64,000 bases of DNA from Candidatus Cloacimonadota bacterium (GTDB taxonomy: Bacteria > Cloacimonadota > Cloacimonadia > JGIOTU-2), in contig JAFGDR010000023.1 in NCBI GenBank assembly GCA_016932035.1, positions 1-64,000 of the forward strand, written 5' to 3'. The position numbers and the translations under genes were made by a program. The notes below the pieces were generated by a model. It was not told the origin of the DNA. It was given only the letters and a program-made list of their open reading frames with translations, and made no database searches. This document shows, piece after piece, positions 29,608-63,977 of the stretch. Within the stretch, counting starts at the first letter, position 1. Each line of letters opens with the position of its first letter.

Positions 29608-30735
29608 TTAAGGCAAAAACTGCAACGGATCGTAGGCCCGTCCATCCAGCCGAACCTCGAAATGAACATGCGCACCTGTTGCATTGCCGGTCATTCCAAC
29701 CTTTGCAATGATTTCCCCTTTTTTAACCTTATCACCCTTACTAACAAGATTTTCCTGATTATGTGCATACACCGTCATAATGCTGTTATCATGCTTGAGA
29801 ATGATGACATTTCCATAGCCGCGTTGTTTTCCCGAATAAGCTACTTCACCATCTAACACTGCTTTTAATGGAGTGCCTTCAGGGCATGCGATATCCAAAC
29901 CTTTATGTGGTTTCCCGTCACGAGTGCCGAAGCCAGATGTGATCTGCCCTGTACAAGGCCATATGATACCGTATTTCTGGAATTCAGATTTCTTTATTAC
30001 CGGTTTAGGAATCGTATATTTTGAATTATCATCCTTGGATTGTGGGGCAAGATAGAGCTTCTGTCCTACAAAAATATTATCAGAACTCAAGCTGTTGTAG
30101 TTCTTTAATTCATATATTGACAAGCTGTAGGTTGATGCAATTCTATAAAGTGTCTCACCCTTTTTAACAACATGATATTTTGGTTTCTTGGTCTGTGTGG
30201 TTTGAACCTTGGGTGTTTCGATCTTTTCTTGAGTTGGTTGAGGTTTGTCTATTTTTTTCGGCTCATATTGCTTTATAGGTGTGGTAACAGTTGTGGTTTG
30301 AATTGTTGTACCATTTAAAAGTAATTTTTCCCCGGCTTTAATCGTATAGGATGAAAGTTGGTTCCATTCCATCAATTGTTCGATAGGAATGGAATACATC
30401 TTAGAGATCCTATAAAGTGTCTCACCTTTTTGAATAACATGATAACCGGATGAAGGAATGTCCTTTTTTGTAACATAATACTGTTGTGGGTGCTCTTTAC
30501 TATATAAATATATTTTTTGTCCAATGAGAATTTTATCTGATGGAAGATTATTTATCCTTTTAAGAGCATCTACAGTTGTTTCGTACTTCTTAGCTATTGA
30601 GTATAGGGTATCTCCTTTTTTTACAACATGATAATCATCGGATTCAGTAATATATGTTGGATTTGGAGAAAATCCAAGCAATAGAAGGCATAAAAAAAGA
30701 ATAATAAGTTTAGTATACAATTTCGAATGAATCAT
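29608..30735 (-). CDS. LysM-domain M23 metallopeptidase (NlpD/EnvC-like)
   Basis: A signal peptide is followed by three LysM peptidoglycan-binding domains (YHVVKKGDTLYSIAKKY, YHVIQKGETLYRISKMY, YHVVKKGETLYRIASTY) separated by a Pro/Thr/Lys linker, then an M23 peptidase domain. Zn ligands are present: HKGLDIA (His and Asp of HxxxD) and HVHFEV (HxH). The catalytic site being intact, it may cleave peptidoglycan cross-links during division or act as an amidase activator. ATG at 30735 is preferred because the signal peptide starts there; it overlaps the end of acyP by 26 bases. Secretion to the periplasm is inferred. Confidence 0.9.
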   Translation of the reverse strand: MIHSKLYTKLIILFLCLLLLGFSPNPTYITESDDYHVVKKGDTLYSIAKKYETTVDALKRINNLPSDKILIGQKIYLYSKEHPQQYYVTKKDIPSSGYHVIQKGETLYRISKMYSIPIEQLMEWNQLSSYTIKAGEKLLLNGTTIQTTTVTTPIKQYEPKKIDKPQPTQEKIETPKVQTTQTKKPKYHVVKKGETLYRIASTYSLSIYELKNYNSLSSDNIFVGQKLYLAPQSKDDNSKYTIPKPVIKKSEFQKYGIIWPCTGQITSGFGTRDGKPHKGLDIACPEGTPLKAVLDGEVAYSGKQRGYGNVIILKHDNSIMTVYAHNQENLVSKGDKVKKGEIIAKVGMTGNATGAHVHFEVRLDGRAYDPLQFLP

Positions 30736-30982
30736 ATTCAGTTTGTTCCGGGTCTTCTTCAATGATGATGTTGTCAACGCGTGCTGAAGGAGGTCCTAAT
30801 TTGATTTTATCAATAAAGGGTTCCAGGTTTTCGGCATCGCCCTGGACCTTGATTTCAACTTCTCCGTTATAAAGATTTTTTACATATCCATACAGATTAT
30901 ACTGACGTGCATTATAGGTTGTAAAATATCGAAATGCAACACCCTGTACAATGCCTTTTATGATGATATGTAGTTTTTTCAT
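30710..30982 (-). CDS. acyP: Acylphosphatase
   Basis: This 90-residue protein carries the acylphosphatase signature: GIVQGVAFRYFT (containing the catalytic Arg in GVxFR) and the GYVKNLYNGEVEI segment with the catalytic Asn. It hydrolyses carboxyl-phosphate bonds such as acetyl phosphate or 1,3-bisphosphoglycerate in the cytoplasm. Its ATG begins one base after the stop of the MutL-like gene and there is no clear ribosome site, so it probably relies on translational coupling. An in-frame TTG five codons upstream is less likely. Confidence 0.92.
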   Translation of the reverse strand: MKKLHIIIKGIVQGVAFRYFTTYNARQYNLYGYVKNLYNGEVEIKVQGDAENLEPFIDKIKLGPPSARVDNIIIEEDPEQTEYDSFEIVY

Positions 30983-30983
30983 T

Positions 30984-33887
30984 TTAATCAAATACAATTA
31001 TTTTTGGTCTTACTACTCCAGCGCGAATCTGGGTATGACCATTCATATATATTTTTCTATGATGATGTTCTCTGAAGAAGTCTTCAAAGACGGCATTCAT
31101 TCTGAAATCACCGAAACCTTCTGTCAATATTATCGGGAACGGTATAACCTCATTTCCCGTGAGTGCAACACCGATCTCTTCTCCGATGAATGAAACGAGG
31201 TCTTTATTATCGATGGACGGAGCGATAACACCCCCAACATCACTTTCTGCACACAATTTGAGAAATTCATAATCGATTTTATCGAAGCAAATAAGAATGG
31301 TATTTTTACATTTATCTTTTTCGAGAACCGGTTTTGATAGGATCATCATATTGCTTGTTCTTTCGCGACCGAATCCGATAATCCCGTTGAGAATACTTCC
31401 GTTATACTGTATCATAACTGATACATTATCCTCAACATCGATAACATCTCCGCTCACATGAGCCAACAGTTTGTATGGTTCATTTTTATACTGAATCGTA
31501 ACAGTTCCATTTTCTATATCAATATCAGTTATGACACCAGTCGTCGGTGATGGTATCACATGACTGAAATCTTTCTCAAGTCTTGCTGCAAGCGGTTCAT
31601 AGGTTTCGATAAAATCTCCTTCATGCTTTTTTAGGTAACCTTTGATATGTTTTGGATTGATTTTCAGTTCTTTCGCCACATTTACTTTATAAGGTTTGGT
31701 CGAATAATCCTGGATTTCGCGTAGAATGATCGTGCCAGTTTCGAAATTGATATGTTCAATCGTACCTCTTACAGGTGTCCTGTACGTGCTGCTCTTACCA
31801 GAAAAAGCTGATATAACTCCACGATCTGCAATATCGAGAATCTTCTGATTGAATTTTACCGACTCTCCCTCTTTAATGCAAATACTTTTCTCCATGAGTC
31901 CGGGTGTGAGGTCAAGATAATCAAGTGTAAACAGAGAGAGCACATAGATCTTTGGCGGGGCATATTTATTCTCACCGATAAGAGTATCATACGTAACCGG
32001 ATCACCCTTGCGAACAAATAGTTCACCTTCATATGGTAGTTCCCGTTTGATTGTGAATGTGCCATTTTCAATTGATTTATGTTCAAAAAATGATGAGAAA
32101 CATTCTTCGATTTTTTTATTGGATGTGTCTTCTTTGAATAAATCAAGCTCTTTATTATATTGCTCAAAGAAAGTATTTTCTTTGAAACGGGTATCGATCA
32201 AGAGGGGGAGTTCAGTATCCAATTCAAATTCATGATCGTTATTGCCTAAAGAAAAGCCTTTCTCGAGTTTGATTGAGATATTGCGAGATTCTTTCTGATC
32301 ATTCGGAATATATTTCATTTCATCTGAAAGAATAGAATACGTTTTATCTTGTATGCTAATATCCATTACTTTTCGATTTGGTTTCATCTGTTTATAAATC
32401 GGATGAATACATAGACCGATTTTTTGAAAACACTCTTTATGTATAAGTTCACATGCAATTTCTCGATCTATTTCACTGAGTTTTCCGAGATGAGGTGAAA
32501 TGAAATGATTATCCCGCCAGACCTCTGTAATTCCGGAAGGTTTCAGTCCATCACAGATGGTCAATAGAGATTGTTTTTCGGATGGTGCATTTGAAAGTAC
32601 GCCACCAGCACCGATCATTATGCCAATATCTTTCATATGAAAGGAACGCTTCGACTCAAGCTTTTCAACATAGAAGCATTCAAGGAATTTGTCGAGGTCC
32701 ATGTGTTTTAAGCGATCAAGAATCCCAATATTTTGAGTATTAAAATGCATCTTCATATGCTGGTCTTTGGACAGGCGGATCGCTTCACGTGCAACTGCAT
32801 GTTCGATTGCAATCTGAATATCATCATCAGGCACATAAAGAGGATAGAGCATTTTATTCGAAATATAATTTCTTAAGTAATTTTCATTAATACTATCGGG
32901 TAGCCACTTCTGCACATTATCGAATCCTGCATCTTTCATTACATTCGATATACTGTAACTCATTCCATAATTTGCGCTTACAGTTCGGTGATAATTTCCC
33001 AGTATATTTGAAAAAACGTCAGTCGTTGCGCCACCAATATCAACTGAAATTACATTCTTTCCTAATTCTTCACTGACAATTTTCAGCGTATTGATAACTC
33101 CAGATGGTGTTGGAATGATATCACCTGCAACGACTTTTTTCAAATCACCATATCCGGGCGCTTGTTCCATCACATTATCCATGAAGAGCTGGTGTATCTT
33201 TTCCTGGGCTGGTGGAAGATTTTCATCTTGGAGAGTTGGACGAAGATTTGGTACAATATAAAGTTCAAACTTCTCTGAAAAAAGCGATTGAATAAAGGAT
33301 TGTGCATCTTTATTGCCGGCATAAACAAGCGGGATTTTTGTCTTATCTCCAAATTTTGGTTTAGGATGAGCGAGTGAAAGGAGTTCACCCATTCGTACAA
33401 TACTGCTTATATTCCCACCATCAGTTCCACCCGAAAAGAGGATGATATCCGGTCGCAGCAAACGGATGAGCTGCATTTGCTCAACAGCAGTTCTGTTATC
33501 GTTAATAGCAAAGGTGTCGAGTATAACACCTCCGGAACCATACGCAGCTCGTTTGGCGCTGCTAGCTGAATCGAATAATGTCAGACCGAACACAAGAATC
33601 TGCAGTCCACCTCCGGCACTACTCGTCGTCAGATAAAGTGTATCTTCAGAAAAATGAAGGCTTTGTGAAGAAGCATTCTTGTGTAGAAGCGATATATGGT
33701 TCTCCTCCTCGATCTGTTTTATAGCTTTAAAGATTCCTATCTTAACATCTTCCTGTGGACTCTCTACTGTTGTACCAACATTTTTAAGAGCAGTAAGTGT
33801 ATATAATGAGTTATTCTTTTGGAAAAGGACAGCTTTTGTTGTTGTACTGCCAATGTCTGTAATAAGTAAATTTTTTTCTAATTCCAT
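30984..33887 (-). CDS. MutL/GlmL-family protein, long form (967 aa)
   Basis: The first half matches the MutL (GlmL) family, actin-like ATPases encoded with B12-dependent carbon-skeleton or amino mutases: LLITDIGSTTTKAVLF (phosphate 1, residues 8-22), LFSGGTDGGN (about 150-159) and VISVDIGGATTDVF (about 279-292). They are thought to reactivate or assemble the mutase. Family members are usually about 450-620 residues; here roughly 350 residues are added, with repeated short beta hairpins (about 700-880; TPVRGTIEHINFETGTI, PSPTTGVITDIDIENGTV) that look like barrel-sandwich or KOW-type folds. No adenosylcobalamin aminomutase lies next to it, though methylmalonyl-CoA mutase is 15 kb away. This gene begins an operon with acyP and the LysM/M23 peptidase. 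Confidence 0.82.
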   Translation of the reverse strand: MELEKNLLITDIGSTTTKAVLFQKNNSLYTLTALKNVGTTVESPQEDVKIGIFKAIKQIEEENHISLLHKNASSQSLHFSEDTLYLTTSSAGGGLQILVFGLTLFDSASSAKRAAYGSGGVILDTFAINDNRTAVEQMQLIRLLRPDIILFSGGTDGGNISSIVRMGELLSLAHPKPKFGDKTKIPLVYAGNKDAQSFIQSLFSEKFELYIVPNLRPTLQDENLPPAQEKIHQLFMDNVMEQAPGYGDLKKVVAGDIIPTPSGVINTLKIVSEELGKNVISVDIGGATTDVFSNILGNYHRTVSANYGMSYSISNVMKDAGFDNVQKWLPDSINENYLRNYISNKMLYPLYVPDDDIQIAIEHAVAREAIRLSKDQHMKMHFNTQNIGILDRLKHMDLDKFLECFYVEKLESKRSFHMKDIGIMIGAGGVLSNAPSEKQSLLTICDGLKPSGITEVWRDNHFISPHLGKLSEIDREIACELIHKECFQKIGLCIHPIYKQMKPNRKVMDISIQDKTYSILSDEMKYIPNDQKESRNISIKLEKGFSLGNNDHEFELDTELPLLIDTRFKENTFFEQYNKELDLFKEDTSNKKIEECFSSFFEHKSIENGTFTIKRELPYEGELFVRKGDPVTYDTLIGENKYAPPKIYVLSLFTLDYLDLTPGLMEKSICIKEGESVKFNQKILDIADRGVISAFSGKSSTYRTPVRGTIEHINFETGTIILREIQDYSTKPYKVNVAKELKINPKHIKGYLKKHEGDFIETYEPLAARLEKDFSHVIPSPTTGVITDIDIENGTVTIQYKNEPYKLLAHVSGDVIDVEDNVSVMIQYNGSILNGIIGFGRERTSNMMILSKPVLEKDKCKNTILICFDKIDYEFLKLCAESDVGGVIAPSIDNKDLVSFIGEEIGVALTGNEVIPFPIILTEGFGDFRMNAVFEDFFREHHHRKIYMNGHTQIRAGVVRPKIIVFD

Positions 33888-48351: not shown

Positions 48352-48428
48352 CTTAAAAGACCTATTTTTCTTTACTACCCTTGCAACATACTTTTTAAAT
48401 AGCCATTTTAATGCATGAAGAGGTGAAC

Positions 48429-50069
48429 ATGAAAAAGAAATATGAAGAACTCGTTTTGAAACTGACAGAGAGATTTCCAGAACGGCAGAAAGAGTTCCTG
48501 ACCGGGTCTTCTGAAAAGGTTGAACGTCTCTATACACCGGAAGAAACTGAAAAGATAAAATATAATGAAGATATTGGTTATCCTGGTCTTTATCCCTTTA
48601 CGAGAGGAGTCCAGCCAACTATGTATAGAGGGAGATTGTGGACGATGAGACAATATGCTGGTTTTGGTTCTGCTGAAGAATCAAATCAGAGATATAAATA
48701 TTTGCTTTCACAGGGACAGACCGGTTTGTCTATCGCTTTCGATCTTTGCACTCAAATAGGATATGATTCCGATGATCCTATGAGTGCTGGAGAGGTAGGA
48801 AAGGTCGGTGTTGCAATTGATTCACTTGCAGATATGGAAATTCTTTTTGATGGAATTCCACTTGGTAAAGTATCTACTTCAATGACAATTAATGCACCTG
48901 CTGCAATTATACTTGCAATGTATTTAGCTGTTGCAGAGAAGCAGGGAGTAACACCGGATAAGCTGAAAGGTACAATTCAAAATGATATATTGAAAGAATA
49001 TATTGCACGTGGTACTTATATTTTTCCTCCAAAACAATCAATGAGACTCATTACGAATACTTTTGAGTACTGTTCGCAGAACGTACCATATTGGAATACA
49101 ATCTCAGTTTCTGGCTACCATATACGGGAAGCAGGTTCAACTGCTGCTGAGGAAGTTGCATTTACACTTGCTGATGGTATTGCTTACGTCCAGGCAGCTA
49201 TCGATGCAAAGCTCGAAGTTGACGACTTTGCACCGAGAGTATCATTTTTCTTCAATGCTCATAATGATCTCTTTGAAGAAGTAGCTAAATTTAGAGCTGC
49301 AAGACGATTATGGGCACGTATTATGAAGGATAGGTTCAATACTGATAATCCGAAGTCTCAAATGCTTCGTTTTCATACGCAGACTGGAGGTTCTACACTG
49401 ACAGCTCAGCAGTCAGATAATAATATTGTTCGGGTTGCAATACAAGCCCTTGCTGCAGTGCTTGGTGGAACCCAGTCTTTGCACACGAACTCACGAGACG
49501 AAGCGCTTGCACTCCCAACAGAGGATTCTGTGCGAATTGCGCTACGTACACAGCAGATTATTGGATATGAAAGTGGAGTAACAAATACTGTCGATCCTCT
49601 TGCGGGTTCATATTTTGTAGAAAAGATGACAGAAGATATTGAAAGAAAAGCTGAAGAATATATAAACCAAATCGATGAACTCGGGGGAATGGTCGAAGCA
49701 ATAGAAAAGGGATATGTTCAAAAACAGATCCAGGATAGTGCATATAAATATCAGAAACAAATTGAAAAAAATGAACGAATAATTGTTGGTGTTAATAAGT
49801 TCACTATTGAGGAAGAGTCACCCAAAAATCTTTTAAGAGTCGATGAAAAAGTTGAACTGCAACAGATAGAAAAACTACACAAAGTGAAGGCTGAACGTAG
49901 TGAACAAAAAGTAATTGAAAGTCTCGAGAAAATTCGAAAAGTAGCTCGTACTAATGAGAATATCATACCCTTCCTGCTTGAAGCAGTCAAAACCTATGCT
50001 ACCCTTGGTGAGATTTGTAATGTCTTACGTGAAGAATTTGGTGAATATAACGAACAATTAGTACTTTAA
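48429..50069 (+). CDS. mcmA1: Methylmalonyl-CoA mutase, catalytic (large) subunit
   Basis: Matches the mutase barrel of methylmalonyl-CoA mutase (about 546 residues): [53 protein letters not shown] and [13 protein letters not shown]. The Tyr in PTMYRGR (residue 66) corresponds to the Tyr that distinguishes this mutase from isobutyryl-CoA mutase. The cobalamin-binding domain is absent and encoded by the next gene, as in archaeal-type two-subunit enzymes. ATG at 48429 follows GAGGTG; an ATG at 48411 is in frame but less good. It interconverts methylmalonyl-CoA and succinyl-CoA in propionate or amino acid metabolism. Confidence 0.95.
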
Positions 50070-50084
50070 GAGGAATATATAAAT

Positions 50085-50480
50085 ATGAAAAAAATAAGAA
50101 TATTGATTGCAAAACCTGGTCTTGATGGTCATGATAGAGGTGCAAAATTCGTGTCCCGAGCGCTCAGAGATGCAGGATATGAAGTTATTTATACAGGTAT
50201 TCGGCAAACCCCTGAACAGATCGTAGCATCAGCTATTCAGGAAGATGTGGATTTTCTTGGAATGAGCATACTCTCTGGGGCGCATAATGTCCTCTTTAAA
50301 AAAATCATGAGCATTCTCAAAAAGGAAGATGCTGAAGATATTATAGTTTTTGCCGGTGGTGTCATACCTGATGAAGATATTCCATATTTAAAATCACTCG
50401 GCATTAGAGCAATATTTACTCCAGGAACATCTTCAGAAGACATTATTCGATTCATAGAAGAGAACGCAACAAAAGCATAG
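50085..50480 (+). CDS. mcmA2: Methylmalonyl-CoA mutase, cobalamin-binding subunit
   Basis: A 131-residue B12-binding domain with D-x-H-x-x-G (Asp14, His16, Gly19 in LDGHDRG), SILSGAHN and [10 protein letters not shown] that cradle the corrinoid. It is 15 bases after the catalytic subunit and completes the split enzyme. A tryptophanase gene starts 12 bases later. Confidence 0.96.
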
Positions 50481-53118: not shown

Positions 53119-54345
53119 ATGAAGAACCTGTTTTTGCTCTTGCTACTGGTTGTCATTTTGATCACATGTACTCATCAGGAAGAATTAATAGAGATAGAAC
53201 CTCCTGATCCGTATGAGCATGTAATTGGTAGACTGAAAACCGGAAAGTCTTTATACTCAGTTCTTTTAGATAATAATGTATCATATCAGGATGCATACAA
53301 GATCACCAAAGAACTTAACTCTATATATGACCTGAGATATTCACATCCTAATGACAGTTTTCATTTAAAAATTGATACGCTTGGAATTGTTCAGGTAATT
53401 GAGTATTCACCTAATAAGATTGAAAAATATATTGTTGCACGTGATTCGACTGATGAATTCGAAGTATTCCATGAAAAGCTCGTACTCGAAAAAGAGGTTA
53501 AGCTTCTTACAACGATACTGAAATCTTCATTATACGAAACACTGATCAATGGGGGACTTGATCCTCAGCTCGTTATGAAGTTCAGCGATATTTTTCAATG
53601 GGATATCGACTTTTTTATAGATCCTCGAGAAGGGGATACCTGCTCGATTGTATATGAAGCATACAGTCATGATGGAGAAATTTTACAGTATGGTGAGATT
53701 TTAGGTGCTTCATATAAAGGGAAATTATTTGATCTGACTGCGTATTATTTTGATAATGGGAATAACATTCATGGCTATTATAATGAGTATGGTGAATCAT
53801 TTCAAAAAGCATTTCTCCGTTCACCACTAAATTATTCTTTTATCAGCTCATATTTCGGTATGCGCCTGCACCCGATAACAAAGCAGGTCTGGCTGCACAA
53901 TGGCGTGGATTATGCTGCCCCTCTCGGTACGCCTGTAGCAAGCTCTGCAGATGGAACGGTCATTCATAAAGGGTGGAAGGGTGGTCATCCAACACCAAAG
54001 GGGAATACTGGCGGATATGGTTATACGGTTATGATACGGCATTCGAATGGCTATAAAACGCTTTACGGTCATTTGAGTTCGTATGCTAAGAATCTCTACG
54101 TAGGAAAACGGGTTGTTCAAGGTGAAATAATCGGTTATGTCGGCTCAACAGGATGGTCAACAGGACCGCATCTTCATTATACGATCTATCATCATGATGC
54201 TCCCATCAATCCTTTGTCACTCAATAATGTTTCAGGACCTCCTATTCCGAAAGAATATATCGATACATTTAATGAATCCGTTCATAACATTAATACACTT
54301 CTCGAACAATCCAACAAAACATTTTTGCAATCAATTTTCGGTTGA
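53119..54345 (+). CDS. M23 metallopeptidase, probable lipoprotein
   Basis: The N-terminus ends in a lipobox-like VILITC, so Cys17 may be lipidated. The C-terminal third is an M23 (lysostaphin-type) domain with ligands in HNGVDYA and HLHYTIYH, and an unusual spacing with a long loop (GWKGGHPTPKGNTGGYG). Residues 100-250 form the OapA-like/N-terminal region seen in membrane-anchored endopeptidases. It would cut peptidoglycan cross-bridges in the periplasm. It is 9 bases after leuC and ends in TGA, with an in-frame TAA two codons later. Confidence 0.88.
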   Translation: MKNLFLLLLLVVILITCTHQEELIEIEPPDPYEHVIGRLKTGKSLYSVLLDNNVSYQDAYKITKELNSIYDLRYSHPNDSFHLKIDTLGIVQVIEYSPNKIEKYIVARDSTDEFEVFHEKLVLEKEVKLLTTILKSSLYETLINGGLDPQLVMKFSDIFQWDIDFFIDPREGDTCSIVYEAYSHDGEILQYGEILGASYKGKLFDLTAYYFDNGNNIHGYYNEYGESFQKAFLRSPLNYSFISSYFGMRLHPITKQVWLHNGVDYAAPLGTPVASSADGTVIHKGWKGGHPTPKGNTGGYGYTVMIRHSNGYKTLYGHLSSYAKNLYVGKRVVQGEIIGYVGSTGWSTGPHLHYTIYHHDAPINPLSLNNVSGPPIPKEYIDTFNESVHNINTLLEQSNKTFLQSIFG

Positions 54346-54433: not shown

Positions 54434-54958
54434 ATGCAAAAAGACTGTAAAATAACCGGCAAAATTTGGCTTATACTCGATCAAAACAATCATCTTATTA
54501 ATGATATCGACACTGATATGATCTTTCACAATCAATACCTAGCGATCACTGAAATCGAAAAAATGGGACAATATACGTTTGACAATCTTGAAGGTTGGAA
54601 GGATTTTGCAGCTAAAGCAGTAAAAGGTGATATTGTTATTGCTGGAAAAAACTTCGGTGCCGGATCATCACGGCAACAAGCTGTTGACTGTTTTGCTTCT
54701 CTCGGCATTCAAGCTATACTCGCTGAATCATTTGGTGCAATTTATAAAAGAAATGCCATCAATTCCGGGTTGCCAATTTTAACAATTACACACATCGAAC
54801 TTGATAACCTTTCTCAACGACGCGAAATCACCCTTGATCTTGAGAAAGGTATTGTTTCGACTCCATATATTCAAATAGAACCTTTTTCAAAAGTTCAGTT
54901 TGATATTTATCAGGCAGGTAATTTATTTACTTTCGGAAAACAAGTAATTAATAAATAA
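54434..54958 (+). CDS. leuD: 3-Isopropylmalate dehydratase-type hydro-lyase, small subunit
   Basis: A 174-residue swivel subunit with NDIDTDMIF, GKNFGAGSSRQQAVDC, and AILAESFGAIYKRNAINSGLPIL, characteristic of LeuD. It pairs with the large subunit at 51880. Loop residues around FGAGSSRQQA help decide the substrate and match the archaeal-type form rather than enterobacterial LeuD. No clear ribosome site precedes the ATG, and 88 bases separate it from the peptidase gene, so it may be expressed separately. Confidence 0.88.
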   Translation: MQKDCKITGKIWLILDQNNHLINDIDTDMIFHNQYLAITEIEKMGQYTFDNLEGWKDFAAKAVKGDIVIAGKNFGAGSSRQQAVDCFASLGIQAILAESFGAIYKRNAINSGLPILTITHIELDNLSQRREITLDLEKGIVSTPYIQIEPFSKVQFDIYQAGNLFTFGKQVINK

Positions 54959-54986: not shown

Positions 54987-57791
54987 GTGAAAGTTTCTAG
55001 GAAATTTGGACTATTGCTTTTGATGTTCACGCTGTTATTCATAAGTTCAGCATTCGGGAAGATGTTGCCCAATAATGAACCTGTTGAAGGATTGAAAGTT
55101 GAAGATGTTCCTCATGATGATGGCGGAGGACTTGTTCTGAGTTGGAAACCTTTGCCCAAAGAGAAACGCATCATTGAATATCGCATTTACCGCGGATATA
55201 CTCCAGATAGCTTATTCTATATCGGAAAAATACCTGTTGATTCCAAAACCGGTGTTGCCTCCGATACAATGAAGTATGTAGACCAGGGCTGGACATTTTT
55301 TGTTGATGCCACTTCTCCAGCAAAGTTAAGGCACGAAAAAGGACAAAAGAAAGGAACAAAAGGTGCGGAAGTACTCTATCGAACGATGCCCCGTGACATG
55401 AAAGTGTATGGTCCCGTGATGGATCACTACCGCATGCTTGCTGTTATTCCTGATAATGAATATGTCTATCACACGAAGATGAGAGAATTTACCGATGTTG
55501 ATACAACTGAAGATGGAACGATTGATACGACATCGACCATCCTTGCCGGCATGAAATTACAGCAGGTAAAGTATATTCTCACAAAATTAACAGTAGGGAA
55601 AGATTATTTTTATGCGATTCAGGCATTAAACATGAACCGTACAGCTTCTCCACTTTCTGCTATTGTAAGTGGAAAAACTACTGATGATCCCCCTGAAAAA
55701 CTTGAAGAATTCTATGCTGTTGCTGTTACAGATAAAGAGCAGATGCAGTTCGAATGGACATTACCAGTTTTTGCAGATGATCAAAAACAATTTAATATCT
55801 ATCTCTATGATGAGTTTGATGATAAGCATCTCATCTTTACAAGACCTGATGCTTATCCGTATACACCTCAAACAAATGCAATCGTTCCTTATGATTCTAT
55901 TGCAGTACGGTATGATGCATTTAATCCGGCAAATATGAAATGGTATCGATTCAATATCGGAGAGCAGGATAGACAAGATCAGGAAACTCTAGCAAAGGAT
56001 GAACCTATTCCAGCAGAGATTATTACCTCTTCAATGCTTCCTGTCCCGCCTGTTCATTTTACTGTAAAAGATCAACCTAATGACAAGGGTGATCAGATGC
56101 AGGTATACTTTGGATATCCCTATTTTGGACTTTCAAAGTTAGTATACAATGATGCCTTTACCAAACTCACCGTGAACTATTTCATCACAGATAATACAAT
56201 GTATGAAGTTGACCGTTTGATCTTAACGATCAATGGTAAAACCAAAACAGAATACGTGCTTGATAATAAACTCGATTTTAAGGTGAACTGGGATTACACA
56301 CAGCCCATGAAAATTAGAGGAACGTTTGTGTGTAAACACAAAGGACAGGAACCTTTACCAGAAGACTATGCTGTGACTCATACCTTTTCTTTCGATACAA
56401 ACATGCAGCTTGTTTTGATCGACACTCCACCAAACGAACAAATGAAAGAAATGGTGGATTATTACTATCAAGTATATAAGATAAACCATGTTAGCGATGT
56501 GTATCGATATGCAAAGGAAATGTCTTTCAGAGAAAGAGAATATATCGATAAAATAGCTTTTGCAACTGTTCAGTTTAGAGGACGACCCCGGTTCGATCTT
56601 AATGAAAAACGATTATATTTCAGTACATATCTCGCAATTGTCAATTATGAAGATCAATATCCCTATTATACACAGGCCTTGTATCTTGACCAGCTTCATC
56701 AACAGGATGAAGAGCTGAAAGAAGAAATTGCGAAACTTCAAACTGAACTTGAAACTGAAACAGATAAAGAGGAAATAGCTAATATTGAAGATCGAATAGA
56801 TCTTTATATAAGCTATCTTGAAGATAAACCTGAGATCGTTAAGGAAGCTAATCAATTAAAAACTGACAAAGAACGTATGAAGTTGCTGTATACAACAGCC
56901 TGTAAAGCAACACGTTCTTTCAAGTATTATATTAGAAAAACTGATGGAAAGGGACATTTTATTGATACACCTGTTTATACTGCCCCAAATGGAGAGCAAT
57001 ATCTCTTTCCGAAGCAGAATTGGTTCAACACAGATGAAATAATTACTCTCGTTGCAGTCCTACTTTTCGGCGCTTTGGTTTACTTCATGATCCGAGCTGC
57101 AAGAAAAGGTAAGAGATTATATATACGTCCAATCGCAGGTATTCAGGAGATTGATAATGCAATCGGTCGTGCCACAGAAATGGGAAGACCGATATTGTTC
57201 GTTCCCGGATTGAGTGGTATCAGTGATGTGGCAACCCTCGCAGGATTGGCGATTTTGAGCAAAGTTGCGAAAAAAGCTGCAGAATATGACACAAGGATTC
57301 TTGTTCCGTGTCGCGACTTTATTGTGCTTCCAATCGCTCAGGAAACTGTTAAAGAAGCTCATTATGAAGCAGGACGTCCCGACACTTATGACAAAAACAG
57401 CGTATTCTTCATTACCCAGGCCCAGTTTGCATTTGTGTCCGGTGTTAATGGTATCATGATCCGTGAAAAAACCGCAACGAACTTCTATATGGGTATGTTC
57501 TGGGCTGAGTCTCTTCTTATGACAGAGACAGGAAGTATGACAGGTGCTATCCAGATCGCAGGTACAGATGCGGTTAACCAGCTACCCTTCTTTATCACGA
57601 CATGTGACTACACATTGATTGGTGAAGAACTGTATGCAGCGAGTGCTTATCTTTCGAAACAGCCACTCATTCTCGGTACTCTTAAAGCGCAGGATTATAT
57701 GAAGCTTCTCATTGTTATCACTGTTGTAATTGGAACCCTGCTTTCAACTGTTCACCTTACGTTCTTTATGAACTGGTTCCCAGCTAAATAG
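54987..57791 (+). CDS. Membrane-anchored exported protein of unassigned four-gene module
   Basis: Signal peptide (1-24), fibronectin-III-like beta domains (about 30-480; GGGLVLSWKPLPKEKRIIEYRI and EFYAVAVTDKEQMQFEWTL), a coiled coil (about 570-640), one membrane helix (about 691-711), a soluble domain on the other side (about 720-900), and a final C-terminal helix (about 905-927). The soluble domain resembles the domain of unknown function DUF6754 (RPILFVPGLSGISDVATLAGL, DTRILVPCRDFIVLPIAQE). It is the first gene of an operon with three further membrane proteins. The role is unknown. Confidence 0.85.
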   Translation: MKVSRKFGLLLLMFTLLFISSAFGKMLPNNEPVEGLKVEDVPHDDGGGLVLSWKPLPKEKRIIEYRIYRGYTPDSLFYIGKIPVDSKTGVASDTMKYVDQGWTFFVDATSPAKLRHEKGQKKGTKGAEVLYRTMPRDMKVYGPVMDHYRMLAVIPDNEYVYHTKMREFTDVDTTEDGTIDTTSTILAGMKLQQVKYILTKLTVGKDYFYAIQALNMNRTASPLSAIVSGKTTDDPPEKLEEFYAVAVTDKEQMQFEWTLPVFADDQKQFNIYLYDEFDDKHLIFTRPDAYPYTPQTNAIVPYDSIAVRYDAFNPANMKWYRFNIGEQDRQDQETLAKDEPIPAEIITSSMLPVPPVHFTVKDQPNDKGDQMQVYFGYPYFGLSKLVYNDAFTKLTVNYFITDNTMYEVDRLILTINGKTKTEYVLDNKLDFKVNWDYTQPMKIRGTFVCKHKGQEPLPEDYAVTHTFSFDTNMQLVLIDTPPNEQMKEMVDYYYQVYKINHVSDVYRYAKEMSFREREYIDKIAFATVQFRGRPRFDLNEKRLYFSTYLAIVNYEDQYPYYTQALYLDQLHQQDEELKEEIAKLQTELETETDKEEIANIEDRIDLYISYLEDKPEIVKEANQLKTDKERMKLLYTTACKATRSFKYYIRKTDGKGHFIDTPVYTAPNGEQYLFPKQNWFNTDEIITLVAVLLFGALVYFMIRAARKGKRLYIRPIAGIQEIDNAIGRATEMGRPILFVPGLSGISDVATLAGLAILSKVAKKAAEYDTRILVPCRDFIVLPIAQETVKEAHYEAGRPDTYDKNSVFFITQAQFAFVSGVNGIMIREKTATNFYMGMFWAESLLMTETGSMTGAIQIAGTDAVNQLPFFITTCDYTLIGEELYAASAYLSKQPLILGTLKAQDYMKLLIVITVVIGTLLSTVHLTFFMNWFPAK

Positions 57792-57805
57792 AAAGGAGTA
57801 TCATA

Positions 57806-58429
57806 ATGAAAAGACAAATACCTTTAATGATAGTTTTGATACTTGGTTTACTCTTTGTTGCTCATGTATTCATTCCCAGCAAACTCTCCTCAGATTACCT
57901 CGACTGGTTCATGAAATGGACAAAAGTTATAGGTCCTTTCGCGATTGTGTTGGGTGTTTTCAGTCTTGTTCTTGTTCATTATAACAAGATTAAACGCAAA
58001 GCTCCTAACTGGGGATACAGTATAGTTACACTTGCAGCACTTGTTATAACAACCGTTGTTGGATTCGTGTGGGGCATCCAGGAAGGAACCCCCTATATGT
58101 GGATCTTTGAGAATTTCAATGTTCCGCTGGGTGCAACGATGTTCTCACTCCTCGCTTTCTACATTGCATCCGCAGCATATAAGGCGTTCAGAGCACGATC
58201 TGTTGAAGCGACCGTATTGCTTGTCGCAGCTATTATTGTGATGCTCGGACGTGTCTCGATTGGACAAGCGATAACCCACTGGATTCCTGATATTACTGAA
58301 TGGATCCTCAATGTGCCAAACCTAGCAGCCAAGCGCGGAATTGCACTTGGTGTAGGACTTGGTATGACCGCAACATCTCTCAAGATCATGCTTGGGATCG
58401 AGCGCTCATATCTTGGCGGAAGGGATTAA
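57806..58429 (+). CDS. Polytopic membrane protein of unassigned four-gene module
   Basis: 207 residues with about six membrane helices, and charged loops at MKWTK, KIKRKAPN and FRARS. The C-terminal RGIALGVGLGMTATSLKIMLG is Gly-rich and hydrophobic. Ribosome site GAAAGGAG precedes the ATG; it begins 14 bases after the anchored-protein gene and 9 bases before the next. I do not recognise a family. Confidence 0.8.
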   Translation: MKRQIPLMIVLILGLLFVAHVFIPSKLSSDYLDWFMKWTKVIGPFAIVLGVFSLVLVHYNKIKRKAPNWGYSIVTLAALVITTVVGFVWGIQEGTPYMWIFENFNVPLGATMFSLLAFYIASAAYKAFRARSVEATVLLVAAIIVMLGRVSIGQAITHWIPDITEWILNVPNLAAKRGIALGVGLGMTATSLKIMLGIERSYLGGRD

Positions 58430-58438
58430 GGAGGTATC

Positions 58439-59392
58439 ATGAAATTTGCAGATAGCATTCAAAAATTAGATAGAAGAATCATCTATATTATTCTTGCTCT
58501 CGCAGTGATTTTACCTCTTGTTTTCCCTGTTGGATTCAAAACCTATACAACAACACCGGTCGAAGATCTATACCGTCACATCGATGCTGCAGCAGGCAGA
58601 GAAGATATGGCAATTATCATGGACTTCACGCATGATCCCGGTGTGCTGCCGGAACTTTACCCGATGGACCTTGCGATCCTGAGACATTGTTTCCAGAGAA
58701 ATATCAAAGTATTCACGATATCCTTCCTTCCACAAGGCGCAGCGATCATTCAGCTTGCACTATCGGAAGTGAAAGAAGATTATCCTAATATCGAAGCTAA
58801 TGTCGATTATTGCAACTTTGGATTTAAACCATGGAGTTTGAAGCTTCCTATCATGCTTGGTATGGGTGATGATATTGCTGAAGCTGTTGAAACAAATAGT
58901 GAAGGACTAAAACTCGAGAATCTTCCTATTATGCAGGATCTTAAAAATTATGATAATATCCAGGTAGTTGTAGAAATTTCAGGTTCTTCGATGGGGCAAT
59001 TCTGGGTAACGTATGCTCGCGCTAAATTCGGTGTTGATGTTGCAGTCGGTCTTACTGCTGTTATGGCTGCAGATGTGTACCCTTTCCTTCAAACAGGACA
59101 GTTTATTGGCAGTTTGGGTGGATTGAAAGGTGCTGCTGAATACGAACAGCTCGTTGACATTTTCGCAATGAATGGTATTGAGTTCAGTAAGAAAAATGCC
59201 AGAAATATGGCATGGGTAGAAGCCCAGTATGAAGAGCTTCCTGAACTCGCAAAATTGTATAAATATAACAAAGCCCGTATCGGTATGGATGCACAGGCTA
59301 TTGTTCACGTGCTCATAATCCTCTTTATCATACTTGGTAATATTGGATATTTCCTTGAAAAACGTGATCAAAAAAAGAAGTTTGGAAAATAA
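58439..59392 (+). CDS. Bitopic protein with soluble domain, unassigned four-gene module
   Basis: N-terminal helix (about 15-32), a soluble domain of about 240 residues (HIDAAAGREDMAIIMDFTHDP, YDNIQVVVEISGSSMGQFW), and a C-terminal helix (about 286-307). A stretch of the soluble domain, PFLQTGQFIGSLGGLKGAA, looks like the region PFFITTCDYTLIGEELYAA in the first protein of the operon, which hints at a shared fold. Ribosome site AAGGAGG precedes the ATG. No known enzymatic motif. Confidence 0.8.
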   Translation: MKFADSIQKLDRRIIYIILALAVILPLVFPVGFKTYTTTPVEDLYRHIDAAAGREDMAIIMDFTHDPGVLPELYPMDLAILRHCFQRNIKVFTISFLPQGAAIIQLALSEVKEDYPNIEANVDYCNFGFKPWSLKLPIMLGMGDDIAEAVETNSEGLKLENLPIMQDLKNYDNIQVVVEISGSSMGQFWVTYARAKFGVDVAVGLTAVMAADVYPFLQTGQFIGSLGGLKGAAEYEQLVDIFAMNGIEFSKKNARNMAWVEAQYEELPELAKLYKYNKARIGMDAQAIVHVLIILFIILGNIGYFLEKRDQKKKFGK

Positions 59393-59401
59393 GGAGTAAA
59401 C

Positions 59402-60001
59402 ATGACTGAAACAATTGGAATCTGGATTGCTGCATTTTTGACACTCTGCATGTTTTCTTTCCTGTATAAGGATAATCCGTTCTATAAATTTGCAGAACAC
59501 CTCTTCGTAGGCGTTTCAATGGGTTACTATATTCCATATACCTTCTATAATGCTTTTCTCCCATACGCATACGAACCGCTTTTTCTCAAAAAAGATTATA
59601 TCCTCATCATACCTTTCATTATCGGTATTCTGTACTGGTTTAGATTTTCATCAAAACTGAGTTGGATCAGCCGTTATCCCATTGCATTTAGCATGGGTAT
59701 GGTAGGTATGGGTGTTCCCATGGGAATGCACGCAAATGTGCTTGTGCAAATGAGAAGTATGATGCTTCCACTCAATAACATCAACATCATCTTGATCTTT
59801 GTTGGAACCATCAGTATTCTCTTGTATTTCTTCTTCTCCAAAGCACATAAAGGTGTATATGGAAAGTTTACTTCCATTGGTATCTGGTTCATGATGATCG
59901 GATTCGGTGCATCATTCGGTTATACGGTGATGGCTCGTATCTCACTCCTCATTGGACGAGTACAATTCCTGCTTGGTGACTGGTTAGGATTGATCAAATA
60001 A
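59402..60001 (+). CDS. Polytopic membrane protein, last gene of unassigned module
   Basis: 199 residues with about six helices; loop FYKFAEHLFVGVSMGYY and a Gly/Met-rich helix GMVGMGVPMGMHANV are distinctive. Ribosome site AAGGAG precedes the ATG, 9 bases after the previous stop. The transcript is closed by a strong terminator just beyond. Function unknown; part of the same operon as 54987-59392. Confidence 0.8.
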   Translation: MTETIGIWIAAFLTLCMFSFLYKDNPFYKFAEHLFVGVSMGYYIPYTFYNAFLPYAYEPLFLKKDYILIIPFIIGILYWFRFSSKLSWISRYPIAFSMGMVGMGVPMGMHANVLVQMRSMMLPLNNINIILIFVGTISILLYFFFSKAHKGVYGKFTSIGIWFMMIGFGASFGYTVMARISLLIGRVQFLLGDWLGLIK

Positions 60002-60015
60002 TTTGCGCAATCAAC

Positions 60016-60059
60016 AAAAGCACAAAGATTATGATGTGATGTCATGGCTTTGTGCTTTT
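60016..60059 (+). terminator. Terminator after four-gene module
   Basis: AAAAGCACAAAG (60016-60027) pairs perfectly with CTTTGTGCTTTT (60048-60059), with a T-rich tail. It ends 8 bases before the apbE start codon at 60068. Confidence 0.85.
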
Positions 60060-60067
60060 CTTTTGCT

Positions 60068-61096
60068 ATGAAAAAAAGAATCGTTCAGATTAGTTTTATT
60101 ATAATACTTCTTGTTGTGATATACGTGCGCATCAATCATGAGAGAAGTAAACCTATCAAAGAAACAAGGTTTGCACTCGGTACCTTTGTTACTCTTGATA
60201 TACAGGACAAAAATCCACATAATAAAGAGATTATCGATTCGGTTTTTGCTCTTATAAAAACTTTGGAAGAACAATTCTCAAGCACCTATGAAAGTAGTGA
60301 AACAAGCAGTTTAAATGCCTGCCGTGATTCGAGTAATATTTCGGAAAGCATGGCGAAACTTCTTAAAATATCTGAAAAAGTTAGTACAGATACTGAAGGT
60401 GCATTTGATGTAACAGTTGGAATACTGCTGCCATACTATGATTTTATTGAAGAGCTGATGCCATCAAAAACGATGATCGATTCACTTAAATCGTTGGTTG
60501 ATTTCAACAAAATATATGTAAACGATTCTATCTTTTTTAAGAATGATCCGAGAATACGAATAGATTTTGGCGGTATTGCAAAGGGATTTATAGTTGATAA
60601 GGCAGTTCAATATCTTAAAGATCAAGGAATCAAGTATGCTGTTATCAATGCAGGAGGTGATCTCTATGTTATGGAGAATCCACAAACTGATGTCTGGAAG
60701 ATTGGTATCCAGCACCCCAGGAATGAGGAACTTCTGGGTTCTCTGGAAGTGAAAAATATGGCAGTAGTCACTTCGGGAGATTATGAGCAATTCTTCATAA
60801 AAGAAAGAGTTCGTATTCATCACATACTTGATCCTCAAACAGGATATCCTGCAGATAAATCAGTTTCTATTACGGTCATAGCACCTGATGCAACCTATGC
60901 TGATGCAATGTGTACAGCTCTATTTGTTATGGGACCGGACAAAGGGATCCAATTTATCAACAAGAAGGATAGTATTGATGCATTGATTGTTTTTGAGAAA
61001 AACGGCTATCTTTATTATGATGTTTCAGAAAATTTTGACAAGTATAACTTCACACTTTTAGATTCAACAGTGTATCTCATCAAGGAAAATAAATAA
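60068..61096 (+). CDS. apbE: FAD:protein FMN transferase
   Basis: ApbE moves FMN from FAD to threonines of target flavoproteins such as RnfG/NqrC. Motifs: FALGTFVTLDI, DFGGIAKGFIVDKA, AVINAGGDLYVM and HHILDPQTGYPA. The protein begins with a membrane anchor (IVQISFIIILLVVIYVRI) and lacks a lipobox. The start at 60068 follows a terminator hairpin with no ribosome site; an in-frame ATG at 60044 lies inside the hairpin. The stop overlaps the folE2 start (TAATG). Confidence 0.93.
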   Translation: MKKRIVQISFIIILLVVIYVRINHERSKPIKETRFALGTFVTLDIQDKNPHNKEIIDSVFALIKTLEEQFSSTYESSETSSLNACRDSSNISESMAKLLKISEKVSTDTEGAFDVTVGILLPYYDFIEELMPSKTMIDSLKSLVDFNKIYVNDSIFFKNDPRIRIDFGGIAKGFIVDKAVQYLKDQGIKYAVINAGGDLYVMENPQTDVWKIGIQHPRNEELLGSLEVKNMAVVTSGDYEQFFIKERVRIHHILDPQTGYPADKSVSITVIAPDATYADAMCTALFVMGPDKGIQFINKKDSIDALIVFEKNGYLYYDVSENFDKYNFTLLDSTVYLIKENK

Positions 61097-62699: not shown

Positions 62700-63977
62700 A
62701 TGATTGGCGGTCCTTCAAAGAAAAAAATCTTAGAAGAGCTTGAGCAAAAGACTAAGCGCATTCGAGAATTAGAGATAATGGAGAGTAAATACCAGCAGAC
62801 TCGTGAAAATCTCCTTCAAATAGCACGAAATCTAAACCAGAGAATCAGCGAAGTAAAATGTCTGTATAACATAACGAGTCTCGTTGAAAAACCGAATATT
62901 ACCATTGATGGCATTTTGAAAGGAACGATCGAGCAAGTACCAAAAGCCTGGCAATATCCGGAGATCACGTGCGCAAAAGTTACATGGGGGACTAAAGAGT
63001 TCAAAACCGAAAACTATCATAATCCGATTTCATATCTAAAGAGTGACATCAAGGTGTATGGAGAATCCGTTGGAACGATTGAGGTTGGCTACCTCGAAAA
63101 GAAACCCGATAGTTTTGAAGGTCCTTTTACCAAGGATGAGCGAGAACTTCTCAATTCGATTGCAAAACAACTCGGTCGAATTATTGAACAAAAGCAAGCT
63201 GAAGAGGGGCTTGTCAGACTACAGAAAGCTATCGAGACCATGCGCCTTGGCGTAACAATTACAGACCAAGACCGAAATATTGTATACACTAATCCTGCAG
63301 ATGCAAAAATGCACGGTTACAATGTTGATGAGCTCATCGGACAGGATGTTCGCATATTTTCTCCTAAAGAGAATATTTCACCAGTAGATGAGATCGATAA
63401 ATGGAAAGGTATGACACGGGAAAGTGTTAACGTTCGCAAAGATGGATCTTCTTTCCCGGTTCGTCTTATTTCAGATGTTGTAAAAAATAATGAAGGCGAG
63501 AATGTTGGATTCGTTACAATCTCAGAGGATTTAACCGAACGGATGAGTGCAGAGCACGCAAAGAAAGCATTCGAAACAATGCGATTAGGTGTCACACTCG
63601 CCGATACTGACAGAAGGATCATTTATACAAATCCTGCCGATGCTGCGATGCACGGATATGATGTTAGCGAACTTCTTGGAAAGGATGTGAGAATATTTTC
63701 ACCTCCTGACCTTCATAAATACACCACAAAAGGCGAAATCACGAAATGGAAGGGGAAAGTAAGGGAAAGTATTAACGTTCGAAAAGATGGCTCTTTATTC
63801 GCTGTACGTCTTATTACTGATGTGGTAAAGAATATGCGCGGTGAAACAATTGCTTTTGTGACAATCTCTGAGGATATTTCAGATAGAGTTAAAATTCATG
63901 AAGTTGATACTGAAAAAGAGAGTAAAGAAAAATTAAATTTCGAGCGCGACGAGAAACTCGTGGACAAAAAAGAATAA
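62700..63977 (+). CDS. GAF/PAS/PAS signalling protein without output domain
   Basis: An N-terminal coiled coil (1-50) is followed by a GAF-like domain (about 52-165; VPKAWQYPEITCAKVTWG) and two PAS domains (about 174-281 and 289-396) that are near copies: AIETMRLGVTITDQDRNIVYTNPADAKMHGY against AFETMRLGVTLADTDRRIIYTNPADAAMHGY. The first PAS ends in SEDLTER and the second in SEDISDR. The last 29 residues are charged and no kinase, GGDEF or HD-GYP domain follows. A soluble sensor or scaffold for a separate kinase is inference. It has its own promoter. Confidence 0.9.
   Translation: MIGGPSKKKILEELEQKTKRIRELEIMESKYQQTRENLLQIARNLNQRISEVKCLYNITSLVEKPNITIDGILKGTIEQVPKAWQYPEITCAKVTWGTKEFKTENYHNPISYLKSDIKVYGESVGTIEVGYLEKKPDSFEGPFTKDERELLNSIAKQLGRIIEQKQAEEGLVRLQKAIETMRLGVTITDQDRNIVYTNPADAKMHGYNVDELIGQDVRIFSPKENISPVDEIDKWKGMTRESVNVRKDGSSFPVRLISDVVKNNEGENVGFVTISEDLTERMSAEHAKKAFETMRLGVTLADTDRRIIYTNPADAAMHGYDVSELLGKDVRIFSPPDLHKYTTKGEITKWKGKVRESINVRKDGSLFAVRLITDVVKNMRGETIAFVTISEDISDRVKIHEVDTEKESKEKLNFERDEKLVDKKE

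Follow-up and report, generated by a model that had tools for sequence, protein, structure and literature searches.

A four-gene DUF6754 operon of Cloacimonadota as the predicted inner-membrane half of a seven-component module

The first 64,000 nucleotides of contig JAFGDR010000023.1 of a Candidatus Cloacimonadota bacterium (the window; the start of contig C23 in a host genome of 2.44 Mb) contain, between positions 54987 and 60001 of the forward strand, an operon of four genes labelled A, B, C and D, the first of which encodes a DUF6754 protein. From the gene content of related genomes, A-B-C-D is predicted to supply the inner-membrane part of a module with seven components, G-E-F-A-B-C-D. Many phyla have inherited these seven genes as a set, frequently in a single run, and the genes very probably form one functional unit. 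The system, which more than a dozen phyla maintain, has apparently not been described before. With a probability of roughly 0.45 we attribute to it an ATP-powered function at the inner membrane, that is, a hitherto undescribed class of envelope machine with an ASKHA ATPase of the GlmL branch, found in >12 phyla, nearly universal in one of them, and existing in two anciently diverged versions (L and S). Of the seven gene families, which thereby become one testable unit with a candidate ATPase, at least five have no functional label.

Conservation of the operon and its partners

The operon is made up as follows.

54987 to 57791, + strand: gene A, 934 residues, GTG start
57806 to 58429, + strand: gene B, open reading frame of 207 residues
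58439 to 59392, + strand: gene C, open reading frame of 317 residues
59402 to 60001, + strand: gene D, open reading frame of 199 residues
60016 to 60058, + strand: Rho-independent terminator hairpin 3' of D, stem AAAAGCACAAAG/CTTTGTGCTTTT, T-rich tail

A previous sequence-only reading of the window had described four genes with spacings of 14, 9 and 9 bases that end in a single terminator. The open reading frames confirm these gaps for A/B, B/C and C/D, and the stretch from 60014 to 60064 folds at −20.4 kcal/mol (z −5.5), a value equalled by 0 of 200 shuffles. A simple terminator scan with a loop limit of 8 does not report this hairpin.

Among 124 genomes of the host phylum, DUF6754 was found in 121, mostly in two or three copies. 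Relatives elsewhere were sought with a degenerate DNA pattern for the run LIGEEL[FY]AA in 84,980 species genomes; a GC-rich version was chosen in order to avoid the low-GC host phylum, so that low-GC phyla are under-sampled in this survey of A-positive genomes. All 75 stretches returned lay outside the host phylum. Gene order was then called with profiles seeded with the window proteins. The order A-B-C-D was observed in WOR-3, Eisenbacteria, Zixibacteria, Latescibacteria, Krumholzibacteria, Planctomycetota, Elusimicrobiota, Nitrospirota, Methylomirabilota, Binatota, Myxococcota, Acidobacteriota/Aminicenantes, Poribacteria, Riflebacteria/Ozemobacter and Chloroflexota. Testable copies of A, those followed by 2.9 kb of sequence or more, numbered 45 from about 15 phyla, and 41 of them continue into B-C-D; two of the remaining four are Chloroflexota loci that differ in spacing only, owing to a very long C. 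The homologues are thus not found mostly apart, and their joint presence in distant genomes, which the sequence-only reading had named as a sign of a module, is strongly borne out. No relatives were found in viral and plasmid collections.

Co-occurrence extends to genomes in which the genes are not adjacent. In 99 genomes of Planctomycetota, A was detected in 25 and B in the identical 25; C was present in these same genomes and, in addition, in G217 (strong match) and G202 (E 4e-4). A single-contig genome of this phylum (G174) carries A, B and C dispersed at 0.29, 3.48 and 3.53 Mb and has retained all of them. The chance probability of the A-B association is 5e-24, shared ancestry being ignored in this and the following values.

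Pfam tallies of the neighbours of A-D brought out no constant known neighbour. The three further members, E, F and G, were recovered only through all-against-all clustering of neighbouring genes. E (about 600 residues) is a predicted ASKHA ATPase of PF13941, the GlmL/MutL family; F (about 375 residues) combines barrel-sandwich and KOW-like parts; G is a small protein of about 119 residues (range about 110-130) with nothing credible in Pfam. The complete run G-E-F-A-B-C-D, known from several phyla, is present at L063, L135, L136, L138 and L140, of which L140 has A-B-C-D twice, and E-F-A-B-C-D at four loci (L075, L080, L090, L132). Riflebacteria show the order A-B-C-D-G-E-F, whereas Binatota and G179 show G-A-B-C-D-E(-F). 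In Planctomycetota, F accompanies A in 22 of the 25 A-positive genomes and is found elsewhere only in G217, together with C, and as a 28-residue match at a contig edge; the same number of A-positive genomes, 22, contain G, which also occurs in G217, G203 and G223. All 6 F-containing genomes among 112 Myxococcota fall among the 8 with A. The corresponding chance probabilities for A-F are 1e-16 in Planctomycetota and 1e-8 in Myxococcota. F was detected in 120 of the 124 host-phylum genomes. The shared complex that had been proposed from the tight spacing of the operon therefore gains support from co-occurrence, as a prediction from gene content, and the set of four was incomplete, since G, E and F were missing from it.

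The phylogeny of the proteins points to two ancient types. In a tree of A (148 rows), the long and short proteins of the host phylum separate into two large clades that each span many phyla, L with SH-aLRT support of 95 and S with 90. When the B proteins are labelled by their A partner, those of the L group also form one clade in the B tree (99/96); the tree of C is less clean than those of A and B. From the agreement between the A and B trees, the operon was either duplicated before the phyla parted or spread widely later, in both cases mostly as a block. The operon of the window represents the L type; the host has an S paralogue as well. Contig C40 of the host contains another complete A-B-C-D operon, with a short A of 369 residues and one fn3-like domain. 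Two such membrane complexes, L and S, probably operate in this organism.

Predicted architecture of the components

The AlphaFold2 model of A (mean predicted local distance difference test score, pLDDT, 82) shows a signal peptide, a tandem fn3-like ectodomain, a coiled coil (567-642), a transmembrane helix (TM; 682-706), the DUF6754 domain and a C-terminal TM (893-920). DUF6754 (PF20539) is matched by residues 675-931 over the whole profile (1-257 of 257) with E 3.7e-120 and 400.3 bits against a cut-off of 27, and is cytosolic by charge bias. This agrees with the exported, 934-residue coiled-coil protein with a cytosolic DUF6754-like domain described in the earlier reading. The model is poor in the DUF6754 part, with pLDDT of ~36-60 over 810-880, and the structure matches obtained for A with Foldseek and VIA are dominated by fn3 chains, none of them placing DUF6754. 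The ectodomain resembles tandem fn3 chains (Foldseek E 4e-8 and many matches <1e-3; VIA Z ~9-10 over 180-270 residues), a match that denotes likeness of fold only and not ancestry; the Pfam fn3 profile scores 16.7 bits, under its gathering cut-off of 25. The number of fn3 domains varies among relatives, and among the A proteins only those of L type from the host phylum were seen to have a long fn3 arm. The most conserved portion is the cytosolic DUF6754 and not the outside domains. A PADLOC search for anti-phage components returned only LmuB (E 0.01) over the coiled coil of A, which is no credible match.

B and D each contain six hydrophobic segments, as expected for the two six-helix membrane proteins of the sequence-only reading. 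B is predicted by the positive-inside rule to be oriented N-in/C-in, and D is probably N-out/C-out. The second and fourth proteins had been suggested as a pair; B and D have no sequence relation (hhalign probability 1.6%), and internal homology was rejected for these two as well as for A and C (0.5%). Searches of B, C and D against Pfam, with single proteins and with every member of the three alignments, and against NCBIfam, PADLOC and PDB sequence profiles gave chance-level matches only. In Planctomycetota (L129, L130, L132, L133, L134) B carries large inserts between TM3 and TM4, and that of L132 contains an FHA domain. The topology predicted for B would put these inserts outside the cytosol, an odd location for FHA.

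C, previously taken for a bitopic protein, has two membrane anchors, one at each end (12-28 and about 288-306), which flank a soluble, Rossmann-like domain (residues about 39-245; pLDDT 88 in AlphaFold2). Charge bias places this domain outside the cytoplasm, and the Chloroflexota proteins fit this location: between the Rossmann-like domain and the last TM their C contains T/P-rich linkers and a bacterial SH3_3 domain of extracellular type. The top-conserved residues of C cluster directly after strands, the site of ligand binding in Rossmann-like folds. The best structural comparison, with the CODH epsilon/DHS-like fold of 3cf4_G (Z 9.8, root-mean-square deviation 3.0, 145 residues), lies only ~1 above many other Rossmann folds, and Foldseek gave no match to the C domain below 1e-3. 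The Chloroflexota loci (L074, L079, L082) are very diverged, with an A that lacks the ectodomain and a C with a long N-terminal extension; a zinc ribbon is present in C of L074 and SH3_3 in two of the three.

The predicted cytosolic members of the host are encoded at two places on contig C23.

C23:72685-76089: separate G-E-F genes, outside the window, 13-16 kb downstream of D
C23:73057-74955: the split E of the host, PF13941 at 420 bits against a cut-off of 27
30984 to 33887, − strand: diverged fused E-F protein, 967 residues, GlmL-family ASKHA ATPase plus barrel-sandwich/F domain

In E the motifs DCGSTTTK (phosphate-1) and DIGGATTD (phosphate-2) are nearly invariant. A motif of the phosphate-2 type is present in 25 of 25 long E sequences, in degenerate form in Chloroflexota L079, and the phosphate-1 motif (DxGSTxTK) in 20 of 25, most of the others being cut at the N-terminus. 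The fused protein of the window matches PF13941 with 337 bits (cut-off 27) and has intact phosphate motifs, DIGSTTTK and DIGGATTD. It is found on the same contig as the L operon in G000, G114 and G118, and 3 kb upstream of it in G054. Because its E branch is very long in the tree, we regard it as a possible rather than a proven partner of the L operon. Fused forms of about 960-1080 residues exist in many host-phylum genomes alongside a separate F, and the fused gene of the window adjoins a LysM-M23 peptidase gene (29608-30777, same strand). F gives biotinyl/RnfC_N-type barrel-sandwich signals and, at its C-terminus, KOW/Spt5-like signals.

Several other genes flank the operon. An ApbE gene directly 3' of D is listed at 60044-61096. 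Its ATG at 60044 lies inside the terminator hairpin, and because of this overlap the ATG at 60068 is more likely the true start. An M23 peptidase gene (53119-54345) lies upstream of the operon, from which a LeuD/aconitase-C-like gene (54434-54958) separates it; at least 5 genomes of the host phylum have a similar M23 gene ahead of their long A. A GAF-PAS-PAS-like protein with two strongly similar tandem PAS repeats is encoded at 62700-63977. In seven loci from host-phylum genomes (L039, L040, L041, L042, L047, L048 and L051) D is followed by another long A of diverged sequence (A-B-C-D-A'), which apparently has no B-C-D set of its own in the stretch read. In Nitrospirota (L075, L080, L085, L117) a Memo-family-like gene lies directly 3' of D, and PF01875 was matched in four downstream neighbours.

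A possible ATP-powered machine and other readings

If the module is an ATP-powered machine, a mechanism predicted from its genes, its proteins would assemble as one complex in which the cytosolic E hydrolyses ATP. F, as a barrel-sandwich/KOW adaptor, and G would couple E to the DUF6754 domain of A, and the resulting motion could act on or through the membrane core of B and D. From there it might be relayed to the outside parts, namely the putative ligand-binding domain of C and the arm of A, which in the host lineage would be long enough to span much of the periplasm. The outcome could be the movement of a small molecule or a step in envelope assembly.

A number of observations weigh against this assignment. 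That E hydrolyses ATP is inferred from its motifs, and these are degenerate in the Chloroflexota E of L079. B and D appear to have few buried charges, and their sequences thus give no obvious sign of transport. Some A-positive genomes lack other members: G165 and G187 have neither F nor G, G200 has no F and G191 no G. Conversely, two host-phylum genomes of 93% and 91% completeness (G050 and G061) contain F and no detectable DUF6754. Most of the genomes are metagenome-assembled, and single gene absences therefore mean little.

The module may instead be a transmembrane sensory or regulatory complex, in which C and the fn3 arm of A bind a ligand or report the state of the envelope, B and D relay the signal and E serves as a nucleotide switch and not as a motor. 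The variable outside domains (the fn3 number of A, the FHA and other inserts in B, SH3_3 in Chloroflexota C), the conserved pocket-like loops of C and weak 7TMR-DISM matches in 4 of 34 B proteins are in line with such a role. We consider it unlikely, since the neighbours of the module include no constant kinase, receiver, cyclase or transcription factor and conservation is highest in the cytosolic DUF6754 rather than outside.

It is distinctly less probable that E is a GlmL-like ASKHA protein acting on B12-dependent aminomutases within a membrane-tethered chaperone or reactivase, with A-D and F presenting or loading the cofactor. Named members of PF13941 accompany glutamate mutase and ornithine degradation, and a pair resembling the large and B12-binding subunits of a mutase was identified by eye at 48411-50480 of the window. 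Against this, E scores 217 bits with the GlmL equivalog NF040745 (cut-off 475) and 163 with TIGR01319 (cut-off 204), and no B12 enzyme recurs beside the module in other phyla.

A redox-driven ion pump distantly akin to RNF/NQR, with F in the role of RnfC/NqrA, B and D as the six-TM pair and C as an anchored outside subunit flavinylated by ApbE, is highly doubtful. F does match RnfC_N (one member at 26.1 bits against a cut-off of 25.6, the others below it) and, weakly, NQRA_N, and an ApbE gene comes next after D. The ApbE adjacency was, however, seen only in near relatives; the Rnf-Nqr membrane family of Pfam was matched at best with 0.23, in 2 of 34 B proteins, and by none of the D proteins, themselves unrelated to B; and in the alignments neither Cys clusters of F nor an SGAT-type flavin site of C are conserved. 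Finally, the view that A-B-C-D alone is the unit and that E, F and G are often its neighbours by shared lineage only, suggested by their lack of linkage in the host and many other genomes, deserves hardly any credence given the co-occurrence in two phyla and the many single-run clusters with differing gene orders.

The ATP-powered machine is the reading that we prefer. Nearly all genomes of an uncultivated anaerobic phylum have the module, which is also present in groups with cultivable members (such as Planctomycetota and Myxococcota), so that genetics is possible.

Comparison with known systems

As the sequence-only reading had proposed, no known transporter, secretion or signalling complex matches this set of genes. 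A covers the whole of the DUF6754 profile, whose Pfam entry (PF20539) describes a single domain without assigned function; the partners and the two ancient types are absent from the literature searched. No paper on DUF6754/PF20539 or on the seven-gene set was found in the open-access literature searched, most subscription journals being outside this coverage.

E is a member of the GlmL/MutL family with intact ASKHA phosphate motifs. It differs from GlmL proper in remaining far under the curated cut-offs for GlmL and the GlmL family, in ~130-150 additional C-terminal residues and in being tied to a membrane module and not to a mutase. With RNF/NQR the module shares a multi-subunit inner-membrane organization, two six-TM proteins and a putative cytosolic barrel-sandwich subunit. 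Membership in this group, considered because of the adjacent ApbE gene and the barrel-sandwich of F, was rejected: B and D have no sequence relation to its subunits, and an ASKHA ATPase stands in place of redox-cofactor motifs.

PilM-PilNOP of type IV pili, GspL of the type II secretion system and MreB-MreCD combine an actin/Hsp70-fold protein at the inner face of the membrane with small-TM and six-TM partners and an extracytoplasmic arm. In Pfam, A-D, E and F gave no match to the PilM, FtsA, GspL or MreCD families and only generic MreB-like_C hits (E 0.007-0.02). The likeness of the module to these machines is one of architecture only and serves as a lead. E belongs instead to the GlmL/hydantoinase branch and, if the module is truly a machine, would extend the actin/Hsp70-fold ATPase superfamily to a new role at the bacterial membrane.

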